A DNA stretch of 64,000 nucleotides from NCBI RefSeq assembly GCF_005502935.1, contig NZ_SCMP01000004.1, positions 124,001 to 188,000 on the forward strand. Reading direction: 5' to 3'. The notes under the pieces were generated by a model that was given only the letters and a program-made list of their open reading frames with translations, did no database searches and was not told where the DNA came from. This DNA comes from Pseudomonas sp. 2FG (GTDB lineage: Bacteria; Pseudomonadota; Gammaproteobacteria; Pseudomonadales; Pseudomonadaceae). Positions 26,117 through 29,912 of this stretch are shown here, piece after piece (positions within the stretch are counted from its first letter, which is position 1; each line of letters starts with the position of its first letter). Both the position numbers and the translations under genes were made by a program.

Positions 26117-26660
26117 TACTTTGTCTCTCCGGACCCTCCCCCTTCTGCTCAGCTTGAGTGCCGCACTTGGAAGCGCGAGCGCCTGGGCACTGCCGACCGA
26201 CCGCGAGCAACCGATTCGCGTGCAAGCCGACAGCGCAGAACTCGATGACAAACAAGGCGTAGCGGTATACCGCGGCGACGTCGTCATTACCCAAGGCACC
26301 CTGAAGATCACCGGCCACACCGTGACCATCACGCAAACCGCCAGCGGCGATATCGAGGTCTTCACCGCCGTCGGCACACCGGCGTATTACGAGCAGAAAC
26401 CTGCTGCCGACAAGCAGATCGTCAAGGCTTACGGCCTGACTATCCAGTATTTCGCCGCCAACGAGCGCATCGTGCTGATTGATCAAGCCAAGGTAGTTCA
26501 GGAAGGCAATACCTTCGAGGGCGAGAAAATCGTCTACGACACCCAGCGCCAGATCGTCAACGCCGGCCGCGCCACCGGCGCCAACGTGACCTCGCCGCGC
26601 CCGCGCATCGATATGGTGATCCAGCCGAAGAACAAACCCGCCGAGCAGAAGGCGCAGTAA
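26103..26660 (+). CDS. lptA: LptA, periplasmic LPS bridge protein
   Basis: A 185-aa periplasmic OstA-like protein whose stacked jellyrolls carry LPS to the outer membrane. A signal peptide (cleavage near AWA-LPTDRE) precedes [26 protein letters not shown], the OstA_N hallmark (shortened here). The tail is Lys/Pro-rich. It overlaps lptC and abuts lptB. Confidence 0.96.
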
Positions 26661-27385
26661 TGGCCATCCTGAAAGCCCAACACCTGGCCAAGAGCTACAA
26701 GGGCCGCCAAGTCGTGCGCGACGTCAGCCTGTCGATTGAGAGCGGGCAGATCGTCGGCCTGCTGGGCCCGAACGGCGCCGGCAAGACCACCTGTTTCTAC
26801 ATGATTGTCGGCCTGGTTAACGCCGACCAGGGCCGCGTACTGATCGATCAGCAGGACGTCACCCATCTGCCCATGCACGGCCGTGCCCGCGCCGGCATTG
26901 GTTATCTGCCGCAAGAGGCCTCGATTTTCCGCAAGCTCTCGGTCGCCGACAACATCCTGGCGATCCTCGAGACCCGTAAGGATCTCGATCGCACCGGCCG
27001 CCGCCAGGCCCTGGAAACCCTGTTGCAGGAGTTCCATATCAGCCACATTCGCGACAGCCTCGGCATGAGCCTGTCTGGCGGTGAGCGCCGCCGCGTGGAG
27101 ATCGCCCGCGCGCTGGCCACCTCACCCAAATTCATCCTGCTCGATGAGCCCTTTGCCGGCGTTGACCCGATCTCGGTCGGCGATATCAAGCAAATCATCC
27201 ACCACCTCAAGGCCAAGGGTATCGGCGTTTTGATCACCGATCACAACGTGCGTGAAACCCTGGATATTTGCGAAACCGCCTACATAGTCAACGACGGCCA
27301 ATTGATCGCCGAAGGTGATGCCGAGACCATCCTGGCCAACCAACTGGTGAAAGAAGTCTACCTGGGCCATGAATTCCGCCTGTAG
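26660..27385 (+). CDS. lptB: LptB, ATPase of the LPS exporter
   Basis: ABC ATPase of 241 aa that powers LPS extraction by LptB2FG. Walker [11 protein letters not shown]-loop [12 protein letters not shown], signature [15 protein letters not shown], Walker [14 protein letters not shown] and switch TDHNVRETL are all present. Its lptF and lptG partners are not in the window. Start overlaps the lptA stop by one base; rpoN follows after 146 bases. Confidence 0.98.
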
Positions 27386-27442
27386 TTCGCCTAGCCGCCC
27401 ACTACAGAAAATGTGCGAGGGCTAGGCAAAACCCTCGAGGTC

Positions 27443-27458
27443 AGGCATATAATTTGCT
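27443..27458 (+). promoter_or_regulatory. Sigma-54-type -24/-12 site, overlapping a TATAAT box, before rpoN
   Basis: AGGCAT-ATAAT-TTGCT matches the sigma-54 pattern TGGCAC-N5-TTGCA, with GG (27444-27445) and GC (27456-27457) exactly ten bases apart. The same bases contain TATAAT (27448-27453), a possible sigma-70 -10 box. The arrangement, 74 bases before the rpoN start, would let sigma-54 holoenzyme compete with sigma-70 polymerase. Confidence 0.5.
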
Positions 27459-27531
27459 TCCTGGTGGCGCTTTGGCGCCCTGTAGTTGGATAGCGCATGT
27501 GCGCCGGCGAATAAGGTCCTAAGCCCCCTCC

Positions 27532-29040
27532 ATGAAACCATCGCTAGTCCTTAAAATGGGCCAGCAGCTGACGATGACACCGCAGCTGCAACAGGCCATC
27601 CGCCTCCTCCAACTGTCTACCTTGGATCTGCAACAAGAGATTCAAGAAGCCTTGGAGTCGAATCCGATGCTCGAGCGCCAGGAAGACGGCGACGACTTCG
27701 ACAACACCGACCCCCTGGCCGATGGTGCGGAGAGCGCCCCCGCCGCGCCCAACCCGGAGGAGTCCTACCAGGAAACCAGCTATCAGGAGTCCGCCCCCAC
27801 GGTCGACAACCTGGAAGAGGGCGAATGGAACGAGCGCATCCCCAGCGAACTGCCAGTCGACACCGTCTGGGAAGACATCTACCAGACCAGCGCCAGCAGC
27901 CTGCCCAGCAACGATGATGACGAGTGGGATTTCACCACCCGCACCTCGGCCGGCGAGAGCCTGCAAAGCCACCTGCTCTGGCAGCTCAATCTGGCGCCGA
28001 TGTCCGACAAGGATCGCCTGATCGCCGCCACGCTGATCGACTGCATCAACAATCAAGGCTATCTGGAAGAAACCCTGGAAGAGGTGCTAGAAGCCTTCGA
28101 CCCCGAACTGGATATCGAACTGGACGAAGTGGAAGCGGTACTGCATCGCATCCAGCAGTTCGAGCCCGCCGGTATCGCCGCCCGCGACTTGCGCGAATGC
28201 CTGCTGCTGCAACTGCGCCAGCTGCCCGCCAAGACGCTCTGGCTGAGCGAAGCCCAGCGCCTGGCGGGCGACTACCTGGATTTGCTCGGCAGCCGCGACT
28301 ACAGCCAGTTGATGCGCCGCATGAAGCTCAAGGAAGACGAGCTGCGCCAAGTGATCGAGCTGATTCAAAGCCTCAACCCGCGTCCCGGCTCACAGATCGA
28401 AGCCAGCGAACCGGAATACGTGGTACCCGACGTCATTGTGCGCAAGCACAACGAACGCTGGCTGGTGGAGCTTAATCAGGAAGCCATGCCGCGCCTGCGG
28501 GTCAATCCGCAATACGCAGGCTTCGTGCGCCGTGCCGACTCCAGTGCCGACAACACCTTCATGCGCAACCAGTTGCAGGAAGCCCGCTGGTTCATCAAGA
28601 GCCTACAGAGCCGCAACGAAACCCTGATGAAGGTCGCCACGCAGATCGTCGAGCACCAACGCGGCTTCCTCGATTATGGCGACGAGGCGATGAAGCCTTT
28701 GGTCTTGCACGACATCGCCGAAGCCGTGGGCATGCACGAGTCGACCATCTCGCGGGTGACCACGCAAAAATTCATGCACACCCCGCGCGGCATTTACGAG
28801 CTGAAATACTTCTTCTCCAGCCACGTCAGCACCTCCGAAGGCGGTGAATGCTCGTCTACCGCGATCCGCGCAATCATCAAAAAACTGGTTGCCGCGGAAA
28901 ATGCGAAAAAGCCGTTGAGTGACAGCAAGATCGCTGGTTTACTGGAGGCACAGGGCATTCAGGTGGCCCGCCGCACAGTCGCCAAATACCGCGAATCCCT
29001 CGGGATAGCGCCTTCCAGTGAACGTAAGCGACTGCTGTAA
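27532..29040 (+). CDS. rpoN: RNA polymerase sigma-54 factor
   Basis: Sigma factor for nitrogen, flagellar, carbon-catabolic and other activator-dependent genes (502 aa). Region I ([20 protein letters not shown]) is Gln/Leu-rich, region II is acidic (about 55-125), and region III holds the core-binding and DNA-binding parts, ending in the RpoN box [10 protein letters not shown] near residue 480. The HTH-like region [18 protein letters not shown] is present. It is followed by hpf, ptsN, rapZ and ptsO, the classic rpoN cluster. Confidence 0.99.
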
Positions 29041-29123
29041 GGGCTACACTGATCCAAGCCAAAGTGTTCCGGTGGCAGGCCCGTTAGCCTGTCTCTTACA
29101 CACGGCAATAAGGAGAAAGCGGT

Positions 29124-29432
29124 ATGCAAGTCAACATCAGTGGACATCAACTGGATGTGACCGACGCCCTACGCGCCTACATCGTCGAGAAACTCGAACG
29201 GGTGGAGCGCCACTTCGGAAAAATCACCAACGTGCAGGTCACCATGGAGGTCGAGAAGCTCAAACAGAAAATCGAAGCGACCCTGCACATCGCGGGCGGC
29301 GAAGTGGTCGCCCGCGCCGAACATGACGACATGTACGCCGCTATCGATCTACTCACCGATAAGGTCAACCGCCAACTTATCAAGCACAAGGAAAAGCAGC
29401 AGGGTCGCCTGCAAGGCGCCACCGCTCGCTGA
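29124..29432 (+). CDS. hpf: Ribosome hibernation promoting factor, short form
   Basis: A 102-aa HPF/RaiA-family protein that binds the 30S decoding region to make inactive 70S/100S particles in stationary phase. It starts MQVNISGHQLDVTDALRAYI and has the basic VNRQLIKHKEKQ tail. It lacks the C-terminal dimerisation domain of long HPF. A ribosome binding site, AAGGAGAAA, precedes the ATG. Formerly called the sigma-54 modulation protein because of its place after rpoN. Confidence 0.97.
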   Translation: MQVNISGHQLDVTDALRAYIVEKLERVERHFGKITNVQVTMEVEKLKQKIEATLHIAGGEVVARAEHDDMYAAIDLLTDKVNRQLIKHKEKQQGRLQGATAR

Positions 29433-29447
29433 CACCATCCCCTACCC

Positions 29448-29912
29448 ATGATTCGACTTGAAAACATACTGACCCCCGGCCGTTCCCTGGTGAGCGTGCC
29501 GGGAGGCAGCAAAAAACGTGTCCTCGAACAGATCGCCAACCTGGTCGCCCGCGAACTGCCCGACCTGGATGGACAAGACATTTTCGAGAGCCTGGTCGCC
29601 CGCGAAAAGCTTGGCTCAACCGGTTTCGGCAATGGCATCGCCATTCCACATTGCCGTCTGCCTGGCTGCGTATCGCCGATCAGCGCCCTGCTGCGCCTCG
29701 ACGCCCCGGTAGACTTCGATGCTATCGACGGCGCCCCAGTAGACCTGCTGTTTGTCCTGCTAGTGCCAGAGGCCGCCACCGATGAGCACCTGGAGCTCCT
29801 GCGCCAGATCGCCAGCATGCTCGACCGTAGTGAGGTACGCGCACAGCTGCGCCACGCACACAGCAGTGACCGCCTGTACCAGGTAGTAGTGGACGTGCAG
29901 AACGGCCGCTAG
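29448..29912 (+). CDS. ptsN: Nitrogen-PTS enzyme IIA (EIIA-Ntr)
   Basis: A 154-aa regulatory phosphocarrier of the nitrogen phosphotransferase system. The phosphorylated histidine is H68 in GIAIPHCR. It receives phosphate from NPr (ptsO, downstream) and has regulatory rather than sugar-transport roles in known species. It is 15 bases after hpf and 19 before rapZ, so probably one transcript. Confidence 0.97.

Follow-up and report, generated by a model that had tools for sequence, protein, structure and literature searches.

The rpoN gene of Pseudomonas sp. 2FG is probably autorepressed: we infer that sigma-54 holoenzyme, held as a closed complex at a candidate site within the sigma-70 core promoter of rpoN, would occlude this promoter and lower transcription of its own gene. 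This judgment combines the operator-like behavior of the site with what is known about closed complexes and with published reports of occlusion and binding. The window, i.e., the whole stretch of 64,000 nucleotides that was analyzed, contains the site in the gap between lptB and rpoN. It belongs to a genome of 4.23 Mb that its RpoN relatives place in Pseudomonas.

The rpoN locus and its candidate site

The element AGGCATATAATTTGCT is located 89 bp from the rpoN ATG (Table 1). The sequence-only reading had claimed an exact GG-N10-GC spacing together with TATAAT in front of rpoN, and this is confirmed at 27443-27458 on the plus strand, with ten bases between GG and GC. GG-N10-GC is the signature of sigma-54, and the element carries both this spacing and the surrounding letters of a sigma-54 recognition site, with matches to TGGCACG-N4-TTGCW at five of the eight non-core letters (C, A, T, T, and W), exactly at the threshold used. 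The identity of rpoN is supported by a Sigma54_DBD match (PF04552; 234 bits; window positions 28555-29031). The upstream open reading frame is presumably lptB, and its name also follows the E. coli K-12 gene order lptB-rpoN-hpf-ptsN-rapZ.

Table 1. Positions of the features at the rpoN locus, in coordinates of the window.
Feature	Position	Strand	Details	Basis
lptB (presumed), gene 5' of rpoN	26660..27385	+		ORF; name by recognition and E. coli K-12 gene order
Conserved CTAGGCAAA block	27422..27430	+	Profile columns -21 to -13	Conservation profile; role putative
GGCAAA, putative non-consensus -35	27425-27430	+	17 bp 5' of TATAAT	
Sigma-54 type -24/-12 element AGGCATATAATTTGCT	27443..27458	+	GG 27444-27445, GC 27456-27457	Sequence and conservation
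TATAAT, putative sigma-70 -10 box	27448..27453	+	Within the sigma-54 spacer	Sequence; promoter function predicted
Predicted start region	27460..27469	+	Sigma-70 ~27460-27461, sigma-54 ~27469	Standard promoter geometry
rpoN leader, two GGCGC/GCGCC-type hairpins	27466-27479 and about 27492-27505	+		Joint alignment and folding of 28 chosen sequences
rpoN (sigma-54)	27532..29040	+	502 aa	ORF; PF04552 match

A simple sigma-70 scan of 26500-29500 returned no promoter because the -35 is poor. The CTAGGCAAA block is conserved though far from a consensus -35, and its AGGCA lies 19 bp 5' of the AGGCA in the sigma-54 site. As judged by eye, this block overlaps the lptB stop codon in genus g6 and is altered or absent in some genera (e.g., g2 and g13). 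It was rejected as a second sigma-54 half-site, with no GC found ten bases 3' of its GG in the window. The lptB-rpoN gap also contains a terminator-like inverted repeat on the minus strand (27416-27437); this match faces away from rpoN and its stem was not seen by eye in the relatives compared, and it was set aside.

Bare motif statistics were discarded as evidence. In the window, GG-N10-GC alone occurs 1317 times compared to 1267 expected, TATAAT four times compared to 3.2, and TGGCACGNNNNTTGCW with up to three mismatches 116 times compared to 134. These counts are not in excess of chance, so the motif is no evidence by itself and its conservation is the evidence. In the genome of the window, the pattern GGCATNNNNNTTGCT was found at 17 places, against three for a reversed control pattern, and is thus not specific to rpoN.

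Downstream of the site, the two leader hairpins have most of their pairs standard in 25-28 of the 28 chosen pseudomonad sequences (21 of 28 for one closing pair), with a few two-sided changes. An Rfam search found no family at its threshold and one sub-threshold match, which we take as chance. These hairpins may represent a second layer of control and are not needed for the proposed occlusion.

Conservation within the family

Among 298 Pseudomonadaceae genomes searched, 90 were counted, comprising 30 loci and 60 genomes picked for diversity. The rpoN upstream DNA of these 90 genomes (19 genera) and of 80 Pseudomonas records makes up the family sample of 170 loci (L002-L171, with L003 being the genome of the window itself). 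Four repeats (L001, L172, L173, and L175) were left out of this count, as was L174, which is from the same genus and has the site.

At the anchored element, GG and GC are kept in 163 of these 170 loci and TATAAT in 137, with near-duplicates remaining in the sample (e.g., L008 and L043). The conservation in other pseudomonads that the sequence-only reading had named as a check was therefore found. The two parts of the element are not equally durable: 26 loci have GG/GC without TATAAT, and none has TATAAT without GG/GC. The changed boxes beside an intact GG/GC include TAAATC (five of six loci in genus g18), TATATC (three of four in g7), TAGAAT (two of four in g17), and TACGAG (L025 and L028, both in g1). 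Inspection by eye placed a second TATAAT directly 5' of the site in all four g17 loci, and GATAAT at the same position in two of the four g7 loci. In L025 and L028, an insertion of ~12 bp splits the element, and AGGCATACGAGTTGCATAAGAACTTGCTT keeps GG-N10-GC (with TTGCA) while TATAAT is lost. Three of the four loci of the A+T-rich genus g13 have an intact 17-mer and the fourth differs by one letter, although the -35 block and leader are unrecognizable in this genus. The same 17-mer is present in L111, which was deposited as P. putida.

A column profile over 17 genera, which leaves out g3, g5, L025, and L028, gave rounded values of 1.00 for the columns of GGCA and TTGC, compared to 0.99, 0.96, 0.92, 1.00, 0.88, and 0.85 for those of TATAAT. 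The contrast shrinks when g3 and g5 are added (GG, 0.95; GC, 0.97 and 0.92; TATAAT, 0.96, 0.93, 0.90, 0.97, 0.81, and 0.87). No block conserved across the 17 genera was found from -110 to -31, a result that covers conserved, near positions. We also scored sites against the consensus, with GG and GC obligatory and at least five of the eight other letters matching, and found them in 160 of the 170 loci at the true spacing compared to 0-19 at nine wrong spacings.

The anchored count fails in g3 (one of one locus) and g5 (six of seven). Two g5 loci, L133 and L165, retain a weak GG-N10-GC at AGGCATG. An inverted site replaces the forward one in L135 (g3) and L161 (g5), and that of L161 covers a TAAAAT box. 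Across the g5 loci (L133, L137, L160-L163, and L165), the element is mostly AGGCATGCTA-like and usually lacks GC. Two of these loci have an extended -10-like TGCTAAAAT, and the inverted site of L161 lies over that box.

Recurrence in other gammaproteobacteria

A DNA-level search was abandoned as a route to recurrence, with matches in only four of 115 genomes of the order, all of them Pseudomonadaceae. Because nucleotide alignment misses the recurrence, the comparison used upstream DNA anchored on rpoN. Searches with RpoN matched 94 of 95 genomes in the order and 120 of 149 in the class. The sample outside of the family contains 154 genomes, namely, 66 of 90 matching genomes of the order and 88 of 117 further matching genomes of the class; those left out were lower-scoring and many aligned in pieces. 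The threshold of five of eight letters was settled after cutoffs of 4, 5, and 6 had been tried on the 66 genomes of the order and the first 28 of the class. The last 60 genomes of the class were fetched with this threshold already in use and serve as a clean test.

Forward sites were found in 59 of these 154 genomes at the true spacing, compared to 1-9 at nine wrong spacings, and a further 23 have a site in reverse orientation only (0-6 at wrong spacings), such that 82 have a site in any orientation. The other 72 genomes lack any site at this threshold, whichever strand is read. The clean test gave 14 forward and 13 reverse-only sites, each compared to 0-5 at wrong spacings. At least three forward matches and one reverse match lie wholly or partly within lptB. 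When only DNA 3' of lptB was considered (109 of the 154 genomes, in which the lptB end was recognized), there were 36 forward sites (1-8 at wrong spacings) and 18 reverse-only sites (0-5). As a control, 1375 other windows from 54 flanked loci, mostly coding DNA, contained 40 forward and 56 reverse matches, which is not above wrong spacings, compared to 24 and six, respectively, upstream of rpoN in these 54 loci. Sites of the TGGCACG-N4-TTGC type occur at the same place outside of Pseudomonadaceae. In E. coli K-12, the rpoN upstream region offers no more than a degenerate GG-N10-GC with a score of 3/8.

Overlap with predicted sigma-70 promoters

Depending on the lineage, the predicted -10 box is located within the site, immediately 3' or 5' of it, or 34 bp from the first base of the site. 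All of these -10 boxes are predictions. Near forward sites, a -10-like box with four of six letters was found in 48 of 59 cases, compared to 36.5 +/- 3.3 at random positions, and one with five of six letters in 23 of 59, compared to 13.7 +/- 2.7. For reverse-only sites, the four-letter criterion gave 19 of 23 compared to 13.7 +/- 2.2 (P 0.009), and the five-letter criterion lends no support (7 of 23 compared to 5.1 +/- 1.8, P 0.20).

For offsets, 32 consensus sigma-54 sites from the genome of the window and ten class genomes served as a generic control. In offset classes chosen after looking, the predicted box starts at +16 to +18 from the first base of the site in 22 of 59 forward cases compared to three of 32 generic sites (Fisher P 0.006), and at +33 to +35 in 15 of 59 compared to one of 32 (Fisher P 0.008). 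The former layout is mostly TTGC, two bases, and TAnnnT. In the latter, the box position brings the -12 letters to the -35 position, and TTGCAT or TTGCCT lies exactly 17 bp 5' of TACACT or TAAACT in six of the 15 cases. Both contrasts fail with five-of-six-letter boxes (+17 phase, 10 of 59 compared to one of 32, P 0.09; +34 phase, two of 59 compared to zero of 32). Some forward sites have TATAAT or TACACT just 5' of GG. Ten of the 23 reverse-only sites have a box that starts 8-15 bp upstream of the site, a range also chosen after looking, compared to 3.6 expected; with five of six letters, there are four such sites compared to 1.0 expected.

As far as these predicted boxes go, the site shares DNA with the sigma-70 promoter of its own gene, and the reverse-only counts show that either orientation is tolerated. 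Sites in reverse orientation only are incapable of starting rpoN transcription. To judge from this placement before, in, or after the predicted -10 box and in both orientations, the site behaves as an operator on which an occluding protein acts and not as a promoter.

Proposed mechanism and other explanations

Sigma-54 polymerase makes stable closed complexes without its activators. At rpoN, sigma-70 RNA polymerase would transcribe the gene from TATAAT with a weak -35, and sigma-54 holoenzyme that exceeds its activated promoters would bind GG-N10-GC in the same core promoter. The proposed closed complex would persist for want of an enhancer-binding protein acting on it and would physically exclude sigma-70 polymerase. 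The outcome would be homeostatic negative feedback on free sigma-54. The sequence patterns suggest that idle sigma-54 polymerase parks at the candidate site and checks its own gene. The sequence-only reading had proposed such a block of a sigma-70 promoter, and it gains support from GG/GC outlasting TATAAT, from the recurrence outside of the family, and from the inverted sites; the negative sign of the effect is the expected one. For occupancy, RpoN ChIP-seq in P. aeruginosa reported binding upstream of rpoN itself (PMC8855297), which agrees at the level of the gene, with the exact site being a prediction.

We consider it an even bet that this is an old homeostatic circuit of gammaproteobacteria, in which the site persisted at rpoN while the way in which it overlaps the sigma-70 promoter was reworked into five or more arrangements. 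In three of these, the -10 box is within the site, immediately 3' of it, or immediately 5' of it; in the others, the -12 element doubles as the -35 or the site is inverted. Under this scenario, rpoN would sense idle rather than total sigma-54, because only unactivated holoenzyme blocks. In P. putida, expression of rpoN reportedly rises upon removal of the protein. The opposite, positive autoregulation, was reported in Stenotrophomonas maltophilia, where an rpoN promoter fusion was silent when rpoN was mutated (PMC8229486), and hence such a site may serve as a promoter in some gammaproteobacteria, or their wiring may differ.

That report also fits an unlikely explanation of the site at large, namely, that the site acts as a functional, activator-dependent sigma-54 promoter and provides positive autoregulation beside a separate basal sigma-70 start. 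Forward sites are indeed commoner than reverse-only ones (59 and 23 of 154), the +17 geometry would put the starts of both polymerases at nearly the same base, and sigma-54 promoters at rpoN were predicted in several classes (PMC12316311). However, reverse-only sites cannot drive rpoN, and the phased -10 boxes are mostly absent from generic sigma-54 sites (present in 3/32 and 1/32). The family also has no conserved block from -110 to -31, which speaks to conserved, nearby activator sites, and the CTAGGCAAA block of g6 already overlaps the lptB stop by eye.

The uniformity of the family core, AGGCA-N6-TTGCTT, and its GGCAT in place of the consensus TGGCAC could point to recognition by a DNA-binding protein other than sigma-54. 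We regard this as highly improbable, given the sigma-54 signature, the TGGCACG-N4-TTGC-type sites at the same place outside of the family, and the ChIP-seq signal (PMC8855297). The least probable explanation is that the sigma-70 promoter alone is constrained and that GG and GC are passengers of a conserved -10 region. TATAAT does lie within the block, and 137 of 170 loci retain it, but GG/GC outlast it 26 to 0, and the spacing-specific recurrence extends to genomes outside of the family in which the -10 boxes sit elsewhere. The site lends itself to a clean test, since GG or GC can be altered with TATAAT intact.

Comparison with known systems

The usual view is that RpoN levels are stable (PMC7657599) and that control is left to the activators; tight control of RpoN is mentioned in PMC2725144. 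If true, a conserved occlusion site at rpoN would explain these stable levels, and sigma-54 would have another basic function, in which it senses and represses its own supply. In Yersinia, both activating and suppressing sites have been reported (PMC7657599). A 2025 survey predicted sigma-54 promoters at rpoN in several classes, including gamma, and read them as autoregulation (PMC12316311); overlap or the sign of the effect is not mentioned in its available portions. The available portions of PMC3247240, PMC8743547, PMC8657755, and PMC2725144 contained nothing on the promoter of rpoN itself.

Sigma-54 occlusion and the autoregulation of rpoN in P. putida are already known, the latter being cited as such (Kohler et al., 1994) in PMC8855297. 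In the open literature that was searched, we did not find a site inside the rpoN -10 box, which the 1994 paper on P. putida may describe, nor its near-invariance across Pseudomonadaceae or its recurrence in several geometries and both orientations.

Repression of sigma-70 promoters by sigma-54 polymerase at overlapping sites is documented in E. coli, with in vitro tests of four promoters and C at -12 in all of the repressing motifs (Schaefer et al., 2015; PMC4551910). As at argT, chaC, mdfA, and patA, where repression is by binding competition (PMC4551910), the -12/-24 site here lies under a predicted sigma-70 footprint; unlike those genes, the target is rpoN itself, which would give feedback, and the conservation is wide. 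The glmY/glmZ system is similar in having two polymerases that compete on fully overlapping promoters, and glmZ transcription goes up in an rpoN mutant (PMC3844500). Negative feedback on rpoN is also found in Rhizobium leguminosarum (PMC3538637). Unlike the present case, that organism belongs to another bacterial class. The sigma-54 promoter of glmY/glmZ is driven by a dedicated activator, whereas to our knowledge none acts at rpoN. The autoregulation in P. putida, which reportedly is repression, concerns the same gene and the same family as those described here, and L111, deposited as P. putida, shares the 17-mer.
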